IMG/VR virus record: IMGVR_UViG_3300042892_005063
Span: 43,041-107,040 of that record
DNA from: a virus
DNA: 64,000 nucleotides
Direction: 5' to 3' (one strand)
The first letter of the stretch is position 1, and each line of letters begins with the position of its first letter. Below the pieces are notes generated by a model. The model was given only the letters and a program-made list of their open reading frames with translations, made no database searches and was not told the origin of the DNA. The translations under genes and the position numbers were made by a program. This document shows positions 886 through 63,415 of the stretch, one piece after another.

Positions 886-1237
886 TATTCGGACTTGGCC
901 CGAGGTCGCAGTGGTCCGCCCCGGTCAATACGTTGTCGTCGCCAATACGGACGGCGATTGGAACATTGTTCAAGCCGCGTCTCTCGACAATGGCGACGTC
1001 CGTTGCAACACAGATTTCTCGTCTCCAGAAGACAACACGCTAATGGATGTGGACCCCGATTACTATGGTCACGGTGACCCGGTGGTTTTCATGCAAAACG
1101 TTCTGGCCGTGTCCGACACTCTTGCGGAAGCCCAGGAAATCGCCGAGAGTGTAGAGGAAGCGCGCCTCCGCTACGTCCAAGAGATCAAACCGTCGCGCGA
1201 TAAACTCCACTCGAAACTGTTGTTGCTTAAATGTTGA
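878..1237 (+). CDS. Array paralog 3, unknown function
   Basis: 119 residues from a GTG at 878 that lies eight bases inside the upstream gene. Core motif YVVVANTDGDWNIVQAAS near residue 20; C-terminal helix ends KPSRDKLHSKLLLLK. The acidic segment in the middle (EDNTLMDVDPDYYGHGD) has no equivalent in the shorter members. GTG is the only start that leaves the core motif intact. Confidence 0.78.
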   Translation: MDNIRTWPEVAVVRPGQYVVVANTDGDWNIVQAASLDNGDVRCNTDFSSPEDNTLMDVDPDYYGHGDPVVFMQNVLAVSDTLAEAQEIAESVEEARLRYVQEIKPSRDKLHSKLLLLKC

Positions 1238-4829: not shown

Positions 4830-5594
4830 AGGATTCTACCTTCCACCATATCTGGCGTTTCAGAGACAAGGTTTCTGGGCGCCCGGTATCATATCCATCA
4901 GGGGTTAATCGCGGCCAACCCCGCCGCGCGACGCAGACCGGGACGAATTTCGAAGGCCGTAAGGCCGATAGACCGGCGAGTATGAGGTAGATGGACCAGC
5001 GAGACGGATTCGGGGATTAGAACCCCCGTGACGGCAACTCGGCACGACCACTGTGGTCTCGTGTAAAAGTGCACCCCGCATACGCTATACGTGTATGCAA
5101 AAAAGATGATAGCTCTGTCTTCACGCTTTGACATCTATCGACCCGGCACGATCATCCATTCAGTCATGCCGGGAGCTTAGAACTCACCCTTCTATAACCG
5201 TTTCGATCATAACCTTCGGCCAGCGGACAACCATGGACCGTCGAGGTTAACTTGCCCTGTGCGAGACCTCGCGATCAGCCATGCCGCAGATCAGGACCCG
5301 AAAGATCAAGATATGGTGGCTATAAGCAGGTTTCGGGAAACCACCTGCTGGCGTTTATGCGCCTCGTCACTGAATGGACGGCTAGTAAACTCAGGATACT
5401 CGCTTCACTCTTCCGCGCTTTCAGTAATTCTCCAATTGCCCCCAAGGAGATTACTGGGGGCGCGGGAGAAAAACGGACCTGAAATCTAGGATTTGAAAAC
5501 CATGATGGTCTGTCAGTCTTCGAGATAGAGATGAGGGATGAAGGCGAACGTCAGTGAGCCGGGTCCCTCAGATCAGGGGTTGAGAGCGAAGCGA
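4830..5594. other. Gene-free tract, possible structured RNA
   Basis: No credible gene lies in this 0.76-kb stretch. It contains several perfect short inverted repeats (GGCCGTAAGGCC at about 4955; GACCACTGTGGTC at about 5046; AGGTTTC-GG-GAAACC at about 5329) and, on the minus strand at 5012-5028, a T-arm-like GGGGG-TTCTAAT-CCCC without a partner acceptor strand. Composition resembles the other gene-free tracts at 58.1 and 61.0 kb. The short open frames here lack start context. Confidence 0.45.
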
Positions 5595-12798: not shown

Positions 12799-13100
12799 AC
12801 AATTACGTTCAGGTGTGGGACGACGCTGATCATGTTTTCAAGATCGCCGAACTCGTGTCCGCTGGCTGGCATCTCATCTACGCCGAAATACCCTACGGGC
12901 GAATGGAAACCGCGAAGACATGGTGTTCGGCAGCGGGCGAGGACGTTCTGCTGATCGGAGAGTTTGTCGAAGACAACGGCGAGGAAGACGAAGAAGAGGA
13001 AGATGAGGTCTACGAGATAGACCCCAACACCAGGGTCCGACACATTCTGCTGATCAAAGACAAACTGCGCGCCGCGCAGTTCTGCCTAGAGTTCCTCTAG
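12795..13100 (+). CDS. Unknown acidic protein, possible tail-signature member
   Basis: 101 residues with an acidic run (EDNGEEDEEEEDEVYE) near residue 58 and an ending HILLIKDKLRAAQFCLEFL that fits the tail signature loosely. Its stop overlaps the convergent gene at the palindrome CTAG. Confidence 0.75.
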   Translation: MNNYVQVWDDADHVFKIAELVSAGWHLIYAEIPYGRMETAKTWCSAAGEDVLLIGEFVEDNGEEDEEEEDEVYEIDPNTRVRHILLIKDKLRAAQFCLEFL

Positions 13101-13606
13101 GAAAAAATGCGGGACATGTTGGCCGGGAACAGAGACAACTCTTCGGGCGTGACGTCGATCACGGCGACGTCCTGCGCATCCTCGATATCGCGGATGGCCC
13201 GCTTGAGGCCGATGTAGCCGCTGTCGTCCTCGGACAGCTTGTCCATCAGAGCCGCGACCGCGTTCTGGCATGCGTCCATCACGCCGCCGTCGTCGGCGGA
13301 CTTGCACGCCTGCGGGGCGAACGGGTCATTCTCTTCATCCTCATCGTGGAGGAAACGCTTGATGGCGTCCTGTGGAATCTCCACACCCATCCGCCACAGC
13401 GATTCGGTCTCGCGCTGATCATCCTGGAGGTTGACCATCCCGGTCAGCCGTTGGGACACGAGCGCGGCGAACATCCTGGTGGACATCGGGATACCCATGA
13501 CGCACGCGAGCATGATGGTCTCGCTACCGTCCGAGTAGGCACGAAAGCGCGCATCCTCGGCGAGGTAGGAGGTCAGAAGCTCGTTGTTGATCGTCTTAAT
13601 AAGCAT
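13097..13606 (-). CDS. Unknown protein
   Basis: 169 residues, mostly helical; acidic middle (HDEDEENDPF) and two cysteines near residues 101 and 112. No motif recognised. It overlaps the downstream end of the nucleotidyltransferase-like gene by 11 bases, so the two form a minus operon. Confidence 0.72.
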   Translation of the reverse strand: MLIKTINNELLTSYLAEDARFRAYSDGSETIMLACVMGIPMSTRMFAALVSQRLTGMVNLQDDQRETESLWRMGVEIPQDAIKRFLHDEDEENDPFAPQACKSADDGGVMDACQNAVAALMDKLSEDDSGYIGLKRAIRDIEDAQDVAVIDVTPEELSLFPANMSRIFS

Positions 13607-14192
13607 CCTGGTCCAGTTCGATCATGAAGTTCGCTCCCACGTGTTTCTCCTGCAATCCGTCCACGATCTTGCCCAACGTTCCAGCCTCGGGAGTGAACCC
13701 GCTGCGGCAGTATTTGGCCAGCCGGAACATAGATTTCCGAGCGGGCCCGAGCAGTCGAAGAACCTTACGCTCGCAGTCCAACCATGCTTCGTCTCTTCCC
13801 AGAACGGATACACCATCTGTGGCAAACCGGCAAACACTAAAATCGAAGTCGTCGAAGAGTTCATTCAGGCTTTCGAAGTAATTGCTCGTGATTAGCTGAA
13901 TGCGGACGCCCCTGACCTTGAACTGATGGAAAGCCTTTGTGATCACCTCGTCATACAGGGTGTGATAGGCGTCGGTGAACCATTTCATGGTTGCCTTGTA
14001 TTGGTCCTCGTTGGCGAAGAAGATGTCGATGTCCGAGTTGCCTCGTTCGAGATGTTGGGAAATCTTCATCGCGGCACCACCCGCGACCCACGGCCCCTTC
14101 TCGTAGTCGATGAAGTCCATTTCACTAATAACGCTGGTGAATATTCCAGTCATCGTAATCGGCTTGGTGGTGCATCCCTGAAGGGTGTTCAC
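13596..14192 (-). CDS. Nucleotidyltransferase-fold protein
   Basis: 198 residues. VAGGAAMKISQHLERGNSDIDIFF near residues 36-59 fits the nucleotidyltransferase pattern GG/GS...DxD, and DDFDFSVCRF (~115) could supply the third acidic residue. Such proteins transfer nucleotides to RNA, proteins or small molecules (tRNA CCA-adding enzymes, MNT toxins-antitoxins); the substrate here cannot be told. A later start at the second Met (codon 14) is possible. Confidence 0.75.
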   Translation of the reverse strand: MNTLQGCTTKPITMTGIFTSVISEMDFIDYEKGPWVAGGAAMKISQHLERGNSDIDIFFANEDQYKATMKWFTDAYHTLYDEVITKAFHQFKVRGVRIQLITSNYFESLNELFDDFDFSVCRFATDGVSVLGRDEAWLDCERKVLRLLGPARKSMFRLAKYCRSGFTPEAGTLGKIVDGLQEKHVGANFMIELDQDAY

Positions 14193-40445: not shown

Positions 40446-40521
<76 letters not shown>

Positions 40522-40546: not shown

Positions 40547-40623
40547 CGGGGTATAGCTCAGTCTGGTAGAGCACTCGCTTTGGGAGCGAGGGGTCAAGAG
40601 TTCGAATCCCTTTACCCCGACCA
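40547..40623 (+). tRNA. tRNA-Pro (TGG)
   Basis: Acceptor CGGGGTA/TACCCCG, C1-G72 as usual for tRNA-Pro, anticodon TGG (40581-40583), T-loop TTCGAAT, encoded CCA. Confidence 0.96.
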
Positions 40624-40653: not shown

Positions 40654-40727
40654 CGGGGTGTAGCGCAGTCTGGTAGCGCACTGGTCTCGGAGTCCAGGGG
40701 TCGTAGGTTCGAGTCCTACCGTCCCGA
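40654..40727 (+). tRNA. tRNA-Pro (CGG)
   Basis: Acceptor CGGGGTG/CGTCCCG, D-arm GCGC/GCGC, anticodon CGG (40688-40690) in loop CTCGGAG, T-loop TTCGAGT. The 3' end is ACTG, so CCA must be added after transcription. Confidence 0.92.
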
Positions 40728-40748
40728 CTGAACAGATAGTTTGATCAT

Positions 40749-40801
40749 CGGGGGAGGCCGTGAGAGGCCAGTGCACTGAGGTGAAAATCCTCCACCCCCC
40801 G
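40749..40801 (+). ncRNA. Mini tRNA-like element without D/anticodon arms
   Basis: 53 bases: CGGGGG (40749-40754) pairs with CCCCCG at the end; inside are a GGCC...GGCC hairpin and a T-arm-like GAGG-TGAAAAT-CCTC. Too short for a cloverleaf. Lies between tRNA-Pro(CGG) and tRNA-Ala(GGC). It could be a tRNA relic or a processing signal. Confidence 0.45.
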
Positions 40802-40814
40802 TCCAAACCATCTT

Positions 40815-40890
40815 GGGGTCTTAGCTCATCTGGTAGAGCGCAACACTGGCAGTGTTGAGGTGGCGGGTTCGAGTCCCGCAGATTCCACCA
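40815..40890 (+). tRNA. tRNA-Ala (GGC)
   Basis: Acceptor GGGGTCT/AGATTCC with G3-U70, anticodon GGC (40848-40850) in loop CTGGCAG, T-loop TTCGAGT, encoded CCA. Confidence 0.95.
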
Positions 40891-40994
40891 TTCATGGGCG
40901 TGTCGGCGACAACGGGGGCTACCCCGCTAGGCCACCTGCGGTCGGCCCGAAAGGGGGCTTCAGGGAGAGGTGCAAGGCCTCTCGCGTTCCACCA
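40891..40994 (+). ncRNA. tRNA-like 3' half ending in CCACCA
   Basis: GAGAGG-TGCAAGG-CCTCTC (40965-40983) is a T-arm-like stem, followed by GCGTTCC and ACCA. No matching 5' acceptor strand is found upstream, and several hairpins fill the rest. Possibly a degraded or permuted tRNA-like RNA. Confidence 0.35.
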
Positions 40995-41204: not shown

Positions 41205-41279
41205 GGGGATATAGCTTAACGGGTAAAGCGCGCCCCTCGCACGGGCAAGTCTGCGGTTCGATTCCGCATATCTCCACCA
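41205..41279 (+). tRNA. tRNA-Ala (CGC)
   Basis: Acceptor GGGGATA/TATCTCC with G3-U70, anticodon loop CTCGCAC, T-loop TTCGATT, encoded CCA. Completes reading of all four Ala codons with TGC and GGC. Confidence 0.95.
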
Positions 41280-41284
41280 ACAAC

Positions 41285-41356
41285 GGGCGGCACAGCCAGT
41301 GCAATGGGAATAAGCTTTCCCAGAAGAGTGGGAGTGGCTCTCCCCTCCGTCCACCA
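41285..41356 (+). ncRNA. tRNA-like RNA with G3-U70 and CCA
   Basis: 72 bases. Acceptor GGGCGGC pairs six of seven with TCCGTCC, including G3-U70, followed by ACCA. Inner hairpins TGGGAA/TTCCCA and GGGAG/CTCCC are present, but the D-arm is not recognisable and the T-loop is abnormal. Its ends carry the alanine identity pair. Confidence 0.5.
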
Positions 41357-41361
41357 AACAG

Positions 41362-41440
41362 GGGCCAGAGAACCACAGGCGTGGTTCGACGGTGAAGGGG
41401 GTCGCTCCTCCATGGGGTTCGATGCCCCACTGGTCCACCA
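41362..41440 (+). ncRNA. tRNA-like RNA with G3-U70, T-arm and CCA, abutting the AlaRS-like gene
   Basis: 79 bases. Acceptor GGGCCAG/CTGGTCC forms seven pairs including G3-U70, then ACCA; the T-arm TGGGG-TTCGATG-CCCCA (41413-41429) is standard. The D and anticodon arms are replaced by a perfect GAACCAC-AGGC-GTGGTTC hairpin and a GGGGG/TCCTCC stem, so there is no anticodon. It ends 30 bases before the likely start of the AlaRS-like gene, so it could be a charged RNA or a tRNA mimic controlling that gene. Confidence 0.6.
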
Positions 41441-42323
41441 TTTCAACACCAACATCCTGGGAGGATGCTATGACACTGCGGGACGCCTAACAGAGACCTA
41501 CCGGACTTTCTGCCTCGAACGCGGCATTGAGTTTCATGAGGTCAAGAGTGTGAGACCACACGACAACACGACCTTGTTCTGCCCTGCGGGGATGCAGCAG
41601 TTCAAGGAAGACTACCGGGGACATCGTCGCGGGACCGTATCCAATATTCAGTCCTGCATCCGGCTCAATGATCTGGATGAAATCGGCGACCAAACCCACC
41701 ACCTAACCTTCGACATGATCGGGCTGTTTTCGTTCCGTGACATGAGCGTTCTGGAGACCATCGATTTCTGGTTCGAATTCCTCTCCAAGATTGGCATCAA
41801 GCCCGACGTGGTCACCATCCACCCGGACAAGATGCTGGACTGGCGAGAACTCTATCGGGGCCGCGACGTAGAAATACGGCCGGACCCGGAGTGCACGTGG
41901 TCGGACGGCGGCATGGGTGGATACTGCACGGAGTTCTACGTCAGAGGCGTGGAGATCGGCAACATCGTGAATACCAACGGAGATTCAATCGACGTCGGTT
42001 TCGGGATGGAACGCCTTCTCTGGGTTCTCGGCGAAGAAACGCCACCGCGTGGGGACATCCTGGTCCGCACCATCGACCGCATCGTTGAGTCGGGATACCG
42101 GCCCAGCGGCAAGCAGCAGGGTCATGTGCTCCGGCGCCTGATCGGGTTGCTGACAGACGAGGGCAGCCATCCCAACCACCCCGAGGTCGTCAGCGAGACG
42201 TCCAGACGGGTGAAGCTCTCGGAACGCTTCGACCGCCTTTGGCCGAAGCATCAAGACAAGTCGCCAGAGTGGTGGCTGGACACCCACGGTATCGTGGTGT
42301 CTGAAATGGTCCTCAGGGTGTAG
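41412..42323 (+). CDS. Minimal alanyl-tRNA synthetase-like protein
   Basis: Up to 303 residues from ATG 41412. Class II AlaRS catalytic blocks are in order: NTTLFCPAGMQQFKEDYRG (motif 1 region), DQTHHLTFDMIGLFSFRD (motif 2), SIDVGFGMERLLWVL (motif 3), then GKQQGHVLRRLIGLL and WWLDTHGIVVSEM at the end. Cellular AlaRS is ~870 residues; the editing and C-Ala domains are missing here. It lies in a cluster of tRNA-Ala and G3-U70 tRNA-like RNAs. The true start is unclear: ATG 41412 lies within a tRNA-like T-arm, while the best ribosome site (GGGAGG) serves ATG 41470 in another frame. Its stop lies inside the next tRNA. Confidence 0.85.
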   Translation: MGFDAPLVHHFNTNILGGCYDTAGRLTETYRTFCLERGIEFHEVKSVRPHDNTTLFCPAGMQQFKEDYRGHRRGTVSNIQSCIRLNDLDEIGDQTHHLTFDMIGLFSFRDMSVLETIDFWFEFLSKIGIKPDVVTIHPDKMLDWRELYRGRDVEIRPDPECTWSDGGMGGYCTEFYVRGVEIGNIVNTNGDSIDVGFGMERLLWVLGEETPPRGDILVRTIDRIVESGYRPSGKQQGHVLRRLIGLLTDEGSHPNHPEVVSETSRRVKLSERFDRLWPKHQDKSPEWWLDTHGIVVSEMVLRV

Positions 42324-52647: not shown

Positions 52648-52721
52648 GCGGGTGTAGCTCAATGGTAGAGCCGCTGCCTTCCAAGCAGAAGACGAGAGTT
52701 CGATTCTCTCTATCCGCTCCA
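52648..52721 (+). tRNA. tRNA-Gly (TCC)
   Basis: Acceptor GCGGGTG/TATCCGC, anticodon TCC (52680-52682), T-loop TTCGATT, encoded CCA. Confidence 0.95.
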
Positions 52722-52736
52722 GCAAATCTCCAGTCT

Positions 52737-52808
52737 GTTCCAGTAGCTTAAAGGCAGAGCAACTGATTTTCAATCAGTCAGGTGGCGGTTCGACTCCGCT
52801 CTGGAATA
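52737..52808 (+). tRNA. tRNA with anticodon TTC (Glu), atypical
   Basis: Acceptor GTTCCAG/CTGGAAT, anticodon stem ACTGA/TCAGT with loop TTTTCAA (TTC), T-loop TTCGACT. CCA is not encoded. The body is unlike the neighbouring tRNA-Glu, so identity is less certain than the anticodon suggests. Confidence 0.72.
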
Positions 52809-52809
52809 C

Positions 52810-52884
52810 GCGGCTATAGCTCAGTGGTAGAGCGTCTGCTTGCCAAGCAGAAGGTCGGGGGTTCGAGCCCCCCTAGCCGCTCCA
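52810..52884 (+). tRNA. tRNA-Gly (GCC)
   Basis: Acceptor GCGGCTA/TAGCCGC, anticodon GCC (52842-52844), T-loop TTCGAGC, encoded CCA. Starts two bases after the previous tRNA. Confidence 0.95.
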
Positions 52885-52918
52885 TTCCTCCAACGCATAC
52901 CCCATTACTCATCTTCGC

Positions 52919-52993
52919 GGTCCCTTCGTCTATCGGTTAGGACGCTAGACTTTCAATCTGGAAAGACGGGTTCGATTCCCGTAGGGACTACCA
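52919..52993 (+). tRNA. tRNA-Glu (TTC)
   Basis: Acceptor GGTCCCT/AGGGACT, D-arm GTC/GAC as in bacterial tRNA-Glu, loop CTTTCAA with TTC (52952-52954), T-loop TTCGATT, encoded CCA. Confidence 0.94.
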
Positions 52994-53007
52994 AGAATAT
53001 TGGCTCT

Positions 53008-53082
53008 GTCGCCGTAGCTTAACGGTGGAGCGTCCGCTTCTCAGGCGGTTGGTTGCGAGTTCGATTCTCGTCGGCGACACCA
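53008..53082 (+). tRNA. tRNA-Glu (CTC)
   Basis: Acceptor GTCGCCG/CGGCGAC perfect, loop TTCTCAG with CTC (53040-53042), T-loop TTCGATT, encoded CCA. Confidence 0.94.
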
Positions 53083-60954: not shown

Positions 60955-60985
60955 AAAAGCCCTCGGTCTCACCGGGGGCTTTTTC
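60955..60985 (+). terminator. Rho-independent terminator after tRNA-fMet
   Basis: AGCCC-CGGT-CTC-ACCG-GGGCT stem with a bulge, followed by TTTTT. Confidence 0.8.
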
Positions 60986-61000
60986 AATTCTATTTTTTGG

Positions 61001-61029
61001 TTGACATAAAATCCGACTTCGGCGATAAC
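61001..61029 (+). promoter_or_regulatory. Promoter into the 1.1-kb gene-free tract
   Basis: TTGACA (61001-61006), 17-nt spacer, GATAAC (61024-61029). Confidence 0.65.
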
Positions 61030-61034
61030 GGCGT

Positions 61035-62143
61035 CGAGGTTAACTCGCAACGATAGAGCAACGGCCCGGAGGGACCGGGACAGGCAGCGGTGTCTGTTCT
61101 AGGCTGACGGCGGCACTCTAGAGGGGCTTGCAGACGGGGATAGGGCCCACCAGCCCGATTCCCCGTCGCCTCAATGTGGTCAGATGGGTCTCCGTCTGGC
61201 ATCACCATCCTAACCTTCATGGACGTTGGTGCGTTCGCCGGAGGGACAAGTATGTGAACGCGGCCCTCAAAAGCCGAAATGTTGCTGGGTCAGGCGCAGT
61301 GCGCGCTGAGACCAAATACTGGAGTTGGGCGGTGGTCCTTCTGACCACATTAGGTCTTTGACATTCGTCGCCTGTCTTTGATAGGGCGTAGGTCGATGGT
61401 CGGGCCCGTGGTCGCCCGCACTCAAGCGAGTGGTGGGGTTCGATTCCCCGAGGCCCGGTGTAGTTCTCGAATGGATAAGCGGTTCGTCCCTCATCCGAGA
61501 TCGTTTGCGCCTACAGGCGACGTCTACTAAAACTAAGGGGCTAGTCCTGGCCCGCTGAGAAGTGTCGCCCGACCAGCCAAGAGTGCTCCGGGATAGTCGC
61601 TCAGCATAAGCCTACAGGACACACCGTGGGGCGCGACACCCCGCGATGAACACGCGTTGCTATTGCGCGTCCGGGAAACAACTGTTGGTCCGGTTAACTG
61701 GCAAACACTTAGATTAGTCGGGATTTTTTTCCGACTTATACCCTCCCTCTATACCTGTCGGCCCCGATGTGCTGTTTAGAGCAAAGCATATCCCCGACTG
61801 ACTGCACCAGATGCGGCTGAAATGCCAAATCGTCTACCCAGTATACAGGCGTATGCTGGGGGTCTTGAGCGCAAGGTCTGAACGCTTCGGCGTTCCGGTG
61901 GGGGAAGGGGGCTCTGTTGGTGGCGCAGATGCGCCTAGGCTGTGGGTCCACGTCAACTGAACGGCCCCATTAGATTTCGGTGCCAGGGGTGGAAGGCCTT
62001 CCTGAACCTGTGGCTGGAGTCTCGAAATGCAGTCGAGGCGGGTAGAAAGCGAAACCGGACTGGGACTGACCCTAGCACCGGGCCGCGTTGACAAGCACCG
62101 CCCCGCAAGCGCGGGTAAGTCGTGTGCGCTTCCTACAGACGAA
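61035..62143 (+). ncRNA. 1.1-kb gene-free transcript, structured RNA of unknown type
   Basis: Promoter at 61001 and terminator at 62144 bracket ~1.1 kb without a credible gene; open frames inside are short and unsupported. Numerous perfect stems occur (CCCGGAGGGACCGGG near 61061; AGTCGG...CCGACT at 61715; GGCGCAGATGCGCC near 61922; CCCCGC..GCGGG near 62102). A T-arm-bearing element at 61401-61458 is the only recognisable part. It may hold several RNAs. No rRNA or RNase P core seen. Confidence 0.5.
61401..61458 (+). ncRNA. Mini tRNA-like element
   Basis: 58 bases: acceptor CGGGCCC/AGGCCCG (six pairs), one hairpin CACTC-AAGC-GAGTG, and a canonical T-arm TGGGG-TTCGATT-CCCCG. No D-arm, no anticodon loop of normal size and no CCA. 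Same plan as the element at 40749. Confidence 0.5.
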
Positions 62144-62172
62144 GGGGCGGGGGAAACCCTGCCCCTTTTTTT
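62144..62172 (+). terminator. Rho-independent terminator
   Basis: GGGGCGGG...CCCTGCCCC stem with a GGAAA loop and a run of seven or more T. Confidence 0.85.
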
Positions 62173-62221: not shown

Positions 62222-62887
62222 ATGAACCGTCGTACTTTCTTCGCCAGCATTCTCGGCGCCTCAGTTGCGGGCACGCTCGGCAGTCTCGCAGTTCCCGCAT
62301 GGGCGCGCGCCGACGAGAGCCTGAACATCTATGTTCGCCTGATCGACCTCCAGAAGGCGATGCTGGCCAACCACGAAACCTGGAAGAGCGGCCCGGCGTT
62401 CGCCCACGTGCCCGAACTCGACGACCCCTTGGATACGCGCCCCGATGTCGAAAAGCGTCGCCGCCACCTCGTCGAACAGCGAATCGCTGACCGCCACGCG
62501 GCCCGCAAGAACTACGATCTGACCCCGGCTGACGCCGTCCTCGCGCACCTGAACGCCCATTTCGCCCCCGACGCCAGCGACGTCAGCGAGGCCCTCGTGC
62601 GCCAAGCCCGCGCCGAGGCCAACGCGGTTGGCGGCGTGAAAATGTCCAGAACGGATTTCCGTCGCGAGGTCGCCATTGAGCAGGCTCGGCGAGAAGTCCG
62701 GGCCGTGTTCAACCGAGAAATCGAGATCGACACCATGTCGGAGGCCAGCATGCGCCGCGTGCTGAAATCGACGGTCGCCGTCGCGGTCGTCAAGGGCATG
62801 CTGTCGGTGCACAAGATGCCCCTCGACCCCAAGAAGATGGGCGCCTTCAACGAGTTCGCGACGAAGTTCAGGCACATCATCCTTTAA
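62222..62887 (+). CDS. Exported protein with twin-arginine-type signal
   Basis: 221 residues. N-terminus NRRTFFASILGASVAGTLGS ending PAWARA looks like a Tat signal peptide (RR followed by a mild hydrophobic core and A-x-A cleavage). The mature part is helical and charged (EKRRRHLVEQRIADRHAARK), without cysteines. GGAG ribosome site upstream. Secreted phage proteins of this kind could act in the periplasm, for example on lysis or exclusion; function unknown. Confidence 0.78.
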   Translation: MNRRTFFASILGASVAGTLGSLAVPAWARADESLNIYVRLIDLQKAMLANHETWKSGPAFAHVPELDDPLDTRPDVEKRRRHLVEQRIADRHAARKNYDLTPADAVLAHLNAHFAPDASDVSEALVRQARAEANAVGGVKMSRTDFRREVAIEQARREVRAVFNREIEIDTMSEASMRRVLKSTVAVAVVKGMLSVHKMPLDPKKMGAFNEFATKFRHIIL

Positions 62888-62888
62888 C

Positions 62889-62918
62889 TTGACAGTTTCC
62901 GGCCAAGGTGATTAAATA
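62889..62918 (+). promoter_or_regulatory. Promoter of the tmRNA
   Basis: TTGACA (62889-62894), 18-nt spacer, TAAATA (62913-62918), immediately after the 62887 stop. Confidence 0.75.
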
Positions 62919-62924
62919 ACTGCG

Positions 62925-63326
62925 TGTTGGTGACCAAATCAACCGCTTAGGCAGGACCGGGGTGCGAATCCCCGCGCCTCCACCAAAAACACATAGCCCG
63001 CTGAGATACGCGGGGAGCCGACTGTCATGTAAGCCGGGTTGGGGTTTCTAGAGCCCTGGCTATCAACGGTAGATCGGGGACAGTCACAAGGCGGCTAGAG
63101 TTCCTTAGCGGGGGCAACAGTCTAGGCTCGCTACGACCGATATGGTCTGTGTGTTTTTGATGGGGGCGAATAGCTATCGACTGATAGGCGTAGAGGCGAG
63201 AGACACCGGTAAGAAACGACCGAAAATCAGTTCAAATTTCTACCTGCCAACGACAACGTTGACATGGGTTCCTACGCCCTCGCGGCGTAAGGAACTCGGG
63301 GCCCACTGGGGGCCTAGCAACAGAAG
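62925..63326 (+). ncRNA. ssrA: Circularly permuted two-piece tmRNA
   Basis: Acceptor piece first: T-arm CGGGG-TGCGAAT-CCCCG (62958-62974), acceptor strand CGCCTCC and ACCA to 62985. The coding piece begins at 63162 with GGGGGCGAATAGCTATCGAC, whose first seven bases pair with CGCCTCC including G3-U70, the alanine identity pair. The tag frame starts at GCC 63246 and ends TAA 63288-63290: ANDNVDMGSYALAA. Sequences near 62943 (GCTTAGGC) and 63312 (GCCTAGC) can form the helix joining the pieces. The 176-nt interval is long for a permuted gene. Rescues stalled ribosomes and tags products for Clp proteolysis. Confidence 0.93.
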
Positions 63327-63355
63327 GGGAGACTTCGGTCTCCCCACCTTTGTTT
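63327..63355 (+). terminator. Terminator of the tmRNA
   Basis: Perfect GGGGAGAC-TTCG-GTCTCCCC stem (63327-63346) followed by a T-rich stretch. Confidence 0.8.
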
Positions 63356-63415
63356 CGGTTGACCGTTTCGAAATCTCCGACTAAACCGGTCTACGAAATA
63401 ATCCGAGAAAAGCCC

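Follow-up and report, generated by a model that had tools for sequence, protein, structure and literature searches.

What do two tRNA-like elements, T3 and T4, do in front of an alanyl-tRNA synthetase (AlaRS)-like gene of a phage, and how is that gene controlled? Both lie in an island of alanine and proline tRNA genes (Table 1) within the window, the stretch of 64,000 nucleotides analysed here, which comes from a virus record of 107 kb. The explanation favoured below, given about an even chance, takes T3 and T4 as alanine-accepting RNAs derived from tRNAs, T4 being non-decoding, and places the control of the AlaRS-like gene in a frame break at its start, not in T3 and T4.

Genomic setting

By its portal (gp20) and capsid (gp23), the phage belongs to the T4-like jumbo phages, and Sinorhizobium phage Phosso, with a capsid 81% identical, is close to it. 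A second record of 198.5 kb, representing a near-identical strain, overlaps the window: over 20 kb the two show 13 mismatches, and their tRNA islands are identical. Related contigs reach up to 450-608 kb and encode 45-67 tRNAs each. The tRNA genes of the phage are clustered per amino acid: alanine and proline at the island, glycine and glutamate at 52648-53082, serine/histidine/cysteine and leucine elsewhere. It also encodes two synthetases, a class I enzyme of 914 aa, IleRS-like by motifs (L101:11407-14151(-)), and a TyrRS of 428 aa (L097:1551-2837(-)). A permuted tmRNA, separate from T3 and T4, is encoded at 62885-63381 of the window (95.3 bits); Phosso has one too, as do several related jumbo phages. 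Between the tmRNA of the window and a tRNA-Met gene lies an apparently non-coding region of about 1.2 kb (60985-62170), which had no Rfam match at the gathering threshold and includes a tRNA-like stretch with an intact T arm (61401-61458). Several small ORFs of 70-150 aa between 36900 and 45100 share similar terminal F.F....DA.K..M.W motifs and are apparently paralogues.

Table 1. Features of the island and aberrant tRNA-like genes at other loci (L numbers; minus strand given in brackets).
Feature	Position	Strand	Evidence or remark
tRNA-Ala (TGC)	40446..40521	+	ARAGORN/Rfam
tRNA-Pro (TGG)	40547..40623	+	ARAGORN/Rfam
tRNA-Pro (CGG)	40654..40728	+	ARAGORN/Rfam
T1, possible 57-nt tRNA-like stretch, C1-G72 acceptor, UCCA end, weak	40749..40805	+	fold only, z -1.74
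tRNA-Ala (GGC)	40815..40890	+	ARAGORN/Rfam
T2, possible third tRNA-like stretch, GGG...UCC-ACCA, bulged, weak	40897..40994	+	fold only, z -1.07
tRNA-Ala (CGC)	41205..41279	+	ARAGORN/Rfam
T3, tRNA-like RNA, 72 nt, G3-U70, A73, CCA	41285..41356	+	fold and descriptor search
T4, tRNA-like RNA, 79 nt, 7-bp acceptor, G3-U70, A73, CCA	41362..41440	+	fold, descriptor, Rfam
Shine-Dalgarno GGAGG, 5 nt 5' of ATG 41470	41460..41464	+	sequence
Leader ORF, 6 codons, ATG ACA CTG CGG GAC GCC TAA (MTLRDA, stop)	41470..41490	+	frame differs from AlaRS
GGACGC, proposed -1 frameshift site	41481..41486	+	invariant in 45/45 rhizobial copies, kept in divergent phages
mini-AlaRS coding frame, ~280 aa, -1 relative to leader ORF	41481..42323	+	PF01411 66.5 bits, structure model
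tRNA-Pro (GGG), 5' end overlaps AlaRS-like stop codon	42314..42388	+	ARAGORN/Rfam
Trp(CCA), D-armless, G73	L194:6703-6794		anticodon fits discriminator
His(GTG), C73	L199:13471-13545(-)		anticodon fits discriminator
Cys(GCA), U73	L199:3514-3590		anticodon fits discriminator
Aberrant, G3-U70, TGC	L194:12839-12915		
Aberrant, G3-U70, CGC	L196:3413-3487(-)		
Aberrant, G3-U70, TGC	L199:14113-14188(-)		
tRNA-Ala type with CATGTxCCAAGG..GGCGA	L283:1087-1163; L257:3842-3918; L203:2125-2203; L194:12839-12915; L196:3413-3487(-)		
D-arm-less tRNA-like genes	L194:6703-6794; L196:1857-1940(-); L193:6551-6630(-); L224:531-612		
tRNAs with G-[GC]-C-[AG]-G T-loop	L199:10227-10301(-), 12887-12962(-), 13471-13545(-), 14113-14188(-), 920-995(-); L196:3834-3909(-)		

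Structure of T3 and T4

Sequence and fold bear out the coordinates, the G3-U70 pair, the A73 and the encoded CCA that a first-pass annotation had assigned to both elements. Each acceptor stem comprises G1-C72, G2-C71 and G3-U70, followed by C-G at position 4-69. In T4, all seven acceptor pairs form (pair probabilities 0.97-1.0), and the T arm UGGGG-UUCGAUG-CCCCA has a complete stem (5/5); the 7-bp acceptor, the TTCRANN loop and the CCA end are those of a canonical tRNA. A D-like hairpin of 7 bp with the tetraloop AGGC has a pair probability near 1. A third hairpin, formed in 40% of the ensemble (pair probability 0.4), abuts the T stem in the position of a variable arm. No anticodon arm is found in the normal place of T4; an alternative arm CGAC/GUCG was rejected, being 7.8 kcal/mol worse with a pair probability of 0.

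T3 has the acceptor GGGCG(G)/(C)CGUCC. At minimum energy it folds into a cloverleaf: the D arm has 4 bp, the anticodon-like arm 6 bp with the loop UAAGCU, and the bulged T arm 8 bp, so that acceptor and T arms total 13 pairs, split 5/8 rather than 7/5. The CCA end is that of a canonical tRNA; the acceptor of 5-6 bp and the T-loop UGGCU are not. This T-loop is fully complementary to the D-loop AGCCA. A Watson-Crick match of 5/5 bases, noticed after the fact, has a chance of about 1 in 1000, and the pairing would rebuild the tRNA elbow. A canonical anticodon arm, i.e. 5 bp and a 7-nt loop in the normal position, was found in neither element by ARAGORN, Rfam or folding. The initial description of both as lacking normal D and anticodon arms is thus apt for T4, with its D-like hairpin and its third hairpin in variable-arm position, and fails for the cloverleaf of T3.

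ARAGORN, and Rfam at the gathering threshold, called neither T3 nor T4. The best sub-threshold match of T4 was tRNA-Sec (RF01852) with the anticodon arm deleted, scoring 25.8 bits against a cut-off of 47, and an assignment as tRNA-Sec was rejected on this score. Both elements were also considered as pieces of the permuted tmRNA, a reading that was discarded after only weak T-arm matches. Their fold energies are below those of shuffled sequences (z -2.65 and -2.07 for the two elements). A descriptor of a CCA end, a 6-7 bp acceptor and an abutting T-hairpin, applied to the 190-nt spacer holding both elements, matched exactly T3 and T4. Among 1000 dinucleotide shuffles of this spacer, 14 gave one match of any kind, and none gave even one match with G3-U70 plus A73. 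T3 and T4 look like genuine tRNA-like elements beyond chance. Two weaker tRNA-like stretches nearby, T1 and T2, are absent from the first-pass annotation; T2 can form G3-U70 with a bulge.

Aberrant tRNAs in related phages

Exact patterns derived from T3 and T4 were found only in the near-identical strain, in an identical copy, and a distant DNA search of phage records for relatives returned chance matches only. Related jumbo phages harbor many CCA-ended tRNA-like genes missed by ARAGORN: in the regions scanned, 50 aberrant candidates, some of which will be chance, stand next to 307 called tRNA or tmRNA genes. In several of the missed candidates, the anticodon agrees with the discriminator base, and aberrant alanine-type tRNAs with G3-U70 and the anticodons TGC, CGC or GGC recur (Table 1). 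Since aberrant CCA-ended tRNAs recur in this way, strange tRNA bodies appear common in the clade, with T3 and T4 as extreme cases.

Further peculiarities were observed among these genes. An aberrant tRNA-Ala type with the D region CATGTxCCAAGG..GGCGA recurs in unrelated phages, and its L257 copy is located just downstream of a mini-AlaRS gene. D-arm-less tRNA-like genes with a long variable region, missed by ARAGORN, include some with the anticodon CCA (Trp, with G73) or TCG (Arg). In some tRNAs, the T-loop sequence G-[GC]-C-[AG]-G replaces T-T-C-R-A, positions 54 and 58 both being G, as if co-changed. Two tRNA-like genes (L195:4176-4289(-) and 5138-5252(-)) have anticodon loops enlarged by inserts of about 40 nt that are related in sequence (AAGCCTATnAGGCG...).

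The mini-AlaRS

The AlaRS-like gene belongs to a family of proteins of about 280 aa, mini-AlaRS. Its members occur in phages as well as in over 40 genomes and plasmids, nearly all alphaproteobacterial; those of Rhizobium are annotated as 'alanine--tRNA ligase-related protein', and a rhizobial example is RL_RS26335 on pRL9. Mini-AlaRS scores 77 bits against TIGR00344, far below the equivalog cut-off of 457. Its AlphaFold model (mean pLDDT 91) was aligned end to end, over 278 residues, with positions 6-415 of E. coli AlaRS (Z 23.6, rmsd 4.7). By alignments and fold, mini-AlaRS retains the catalytic-core motifs and the alanine-pocket residues at the positions of E. coli W170, N212 and D235. In E. 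coli, G3-U70 is recognized by N303 and D400. A WWxDTHG motif covers the D400 region, and the aspartate is retained in the window enzyme and most family members. The window enzyme has a glycine at the N303 position, and the G010 copy (L188) has an alanine at the D400 position. The fold alignment and the D400-region motif indicate a minimal AlaRS that likely reads the acceptor stem only. In several phages, mini-AlaRS is located within a tRNA cluster, and in two it adjoins a permuted tmRNA. In the huge phage LR745206, mini-AlaRS is immediately preceded by a gene (L203:2700-2958) with a class II synthetase-like end (LEIALGVDRVLY).

Frame break at the mini-AlaRS start

T4 had been described as ending just before the AlaRS-like start. 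This wording needs revision, since the AlaRS-like frame downstream of T4 contains no ATG, GTG or TTG. A Shine-Dalgarno sequence and ATG 41470 do follow T4, but they open a short leader ORF in another frame, relative to which AlaRS is read at -1. The same layout was found at 60 loci of phages and Rhizobiales (the window, L188, L203 and L302-L348), among them G010 (leader MSSRDA, then stop), LR745206 (MKRLDAF, then stop) and 45 rhizobial and related copies. In general, the start codon belongs to a short ORF that contains ...(G)GAC-GCN or (A)AAC-GCN, and the reading of AlaRS goes on at -1 to it. The break is present in all 60 loci carrying the GGACGC or AAACGC site, and the codon after GAC or AAC is an alanine codon in every one. 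The leader starts with ATG in 56 loci, GTG in three and TTG in one; GGAGG or longer stands 5-9 nt 5' of the start in 54/60, and five AT-rich phages show none. The base before the slip codon is G for GAC (56 loci) and A for AAC (four). It equals the first codon base and therefore fits the need of re-pairing one base back. GGA CGC is invariant in 45/45 rhizobial copies, while 79 of 80 downstream third positions vary and one is invariant. A conserved out-of-frame start and invariant junction nucleotides, the marks of a programmed frameshift, are thus both found. The break is confined to one part of the family, because about 50 other phage copies of mini-AlaRS start in frame with ATG.

An assembly error was rejected as the source, the break being identical in 60 loci. 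An in-frame upstream start was likewise dismissed: 29 of the 60 loci have no ATG, GTG or TTG upstream in the AlaRS frame. Reinitiation immediately 3' of the leader fails as a general answer, the codon there being CTG, CTA, TTG, ATT, AAC or AAT.

The position of the break at an alanine codon, common to phages and rhizobia, suggests a translation controlled by alanine starvation. Translation of mini-AlaRS would start at the out-of-frame start codon. With GAC in the P site and the alanine codon GCC in the A site awaiting alanyl-tRNA, the ribosome would slip -1 at GGAC-GCC, tRNA-Asp moving from GAC to GGA. Since the slip would happen during the wait at an alanine codon, scarce alanyl-tRNA would promote the shift and switch the synthetase on, low Ala-tRNA giving more AlaRS. 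Beside slippage, a two-base reading of GCN by a tRNA-Ser may be a second route to the -1 shift; it is considered because non-cognate -1 shifts were traced to two tRNAs, one of them a tRNA-Ser that reads alanine codons. The slippage route is weakened because tRNA-Asp would pair only partially on GGA, because no conserved stimulatory structure or hairpin was seen by eye 3' of the site, and because a slow A site usually counts as a stronger factor in +1 shifts than in -1 shifts (PMC5009743). No natural trans-frame protein from hungry-codon frameshifting was known to Atkins et al. in 2016 (PMC5009743). A literature search, with subscription papers outside its reach, gave no precedent for a phage tRNA-like/AlaRS arrangement or for frameshift control of a synthetase.

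Alternative explanations for T3 and T4

An operator mimic for autoregulation was proposed for T4 in the first-pass annotation. In this view T4 (and T3) would imitate a tRNA and let AlaRS repress its own mRNA, a mechanism known from E. coli ThrRS. The end of T4, 20 nt 5' of the Shine-Dalgarno sequence, would suit such a role. This idea is now very improbable: no tRNA-like element was seen upstream of mini-AlaRS at the other start regions inspected, phage or rhizobial, including those of genes about 61% and 55% identical, T4 has an encoded CCA end as in a processed tRNA, and the gene carries a conserved leader and frame break of its own. In the best reading, the regulator is the frameshift site (41460-41490), and the notion of autoregulation moves there from T3 and T4.

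Quite possible, though on balance doubtful, is a decay of tRNA-Ala gene copies, in which the acceptor end was left, the body was rearranged and no function remained. The confinement of T3 and T4 to one near-identical strain pair, their odd central regions, the weak stretches T1 and T2 alongside, and the large tRNA sets of the clade, which vary between phages, agree with decay. Against it, every helix is intact, from the acceptor and T stem of T4 to the complementary D- and T-loops of T3, and two separate elements both retain G3-U70 and A73-CCA. Decoding by aberrant tRNA-Ala, through UCGCU (CGC) in T4 and UAAGCU (AGC) in T3, is improbable. An alanine anticodon does occur within a hairpin loop of both, and related phages possess aberrant tRNA-Ala with ordinary anticodon loops. 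However, the T4 hairpin stands against the T stem, 10 nt from the D stem, in variable-arm position, the loop of T3, 6 or 8 nt in size, lacks a U33 ahead of AGC, and an NGC triplet is not rare in such loops. The earlier statement that the elements cannot decode is accordingly likely for T4, which has no normal anticodon arm, and uncertain for T3 with its anticodon-like arm.

Alanine acceptance and significance

The earlier proposal of potential alanine acceptors stands as a plausible prediction from identity elements. The bacterial alanine set comprises A73, G2-C71 and G3-U70, with G-C listed at 4-69 (PMC9976931). Alanine acceptance is supported by the presence of the first three, by the adjacent mini-AlaRS with its D400-position aspartate and by three tRNA-Ala genes in the same island. 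It is weakened by C-G at 4-69 against the listed G-C (PMC9976931), by the absence of T3 and T4 from related phages other than the near-identical strain, and by the replacements at N303 in the window enzyme and at D400 in the G010 copy. According to the favoured explanation, T3 and T4 would be cut from the tRNA transcript like the neighbouring tRNAs, and either the AlaRS of the host or the mini-AlaRS encoded next to them would alanylate them; they may be chargeable because AlaRS reads the acceptor stem, not the anticodon. T4 would be unable to decode, and both would be extreme members of the clade's structurally aberrant tRNA population. A broader reading is tentative and rather unlikely as a whole: in jumbo phages and rhizobia, a shortage of Ala-tRNA would turn on mini-AlaRS via a -1 slip at a hungry codon, with T3 and T4 as its non-decoding acceptors.

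Natural non-decoding alanine acceptors, if confirmed, would bring the concept of tmRNA, and what minihelix experiments have taught, into phage genomes. The neighbouring gene is the larger point: should mini-AlaRS depend on a -1 shift at an alanine codon for its expression, it would represent both a natural case of hungry-codon frameshifting and the synthetase equivalent of the release-factor-2 frameshift switch.

Comparison with known systems

The acceptor and T arm suffice for AlaRS. Bacterial tRNA-Ala and alanine minihelices share G2-C71, G3-U70, A73 and CCA with T3 and T4, which in contrast to the minihelices are natural genes and have C4-G69. Compared with bacterial tRNA-Ala, T4 is without an anticodon arm, and in T3 the acceptor/T helix is divided differently and a D/T-loop kiss is potentially added. 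The tRNA-like domain of tmRNA is also an alanine acceptor without an anticodon, whereas T3 and T4 are contiguous, 72-79 nt long and without a tag frame. The long D stem with a tetraloop in T4 is shared with tRNA-Sec and allo-tRNAs; T4 differs by its 7/5 branch, not 8/5, 8/4 or 9/3, and has no anticodon arm. As in the E. coli thrS operator, a tRNA-like structure is located upstream of a synthetase gene, but T3 and T4 are not conserved with the gene and have a CCA end like mature tRNA. Relative to full AlaRS (PF01411, TIGR00344), mini-AlaRS contains the class II catalytic core and the region up to the D400 motif in about 280 aa, with a compressed recognition region and without the editing and C-Ala domains. 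The likeness proposed for its start is prfB (RF2), a translation-factor gene whose early stop is passed only by a frameshift that senses the activity of its own product. The shift proposed for mini-AlaRS is -1 instead of +1, the slow step would be an alanine codon instead of a stop codon, and the gene encodes a synthetase, not a release factor.
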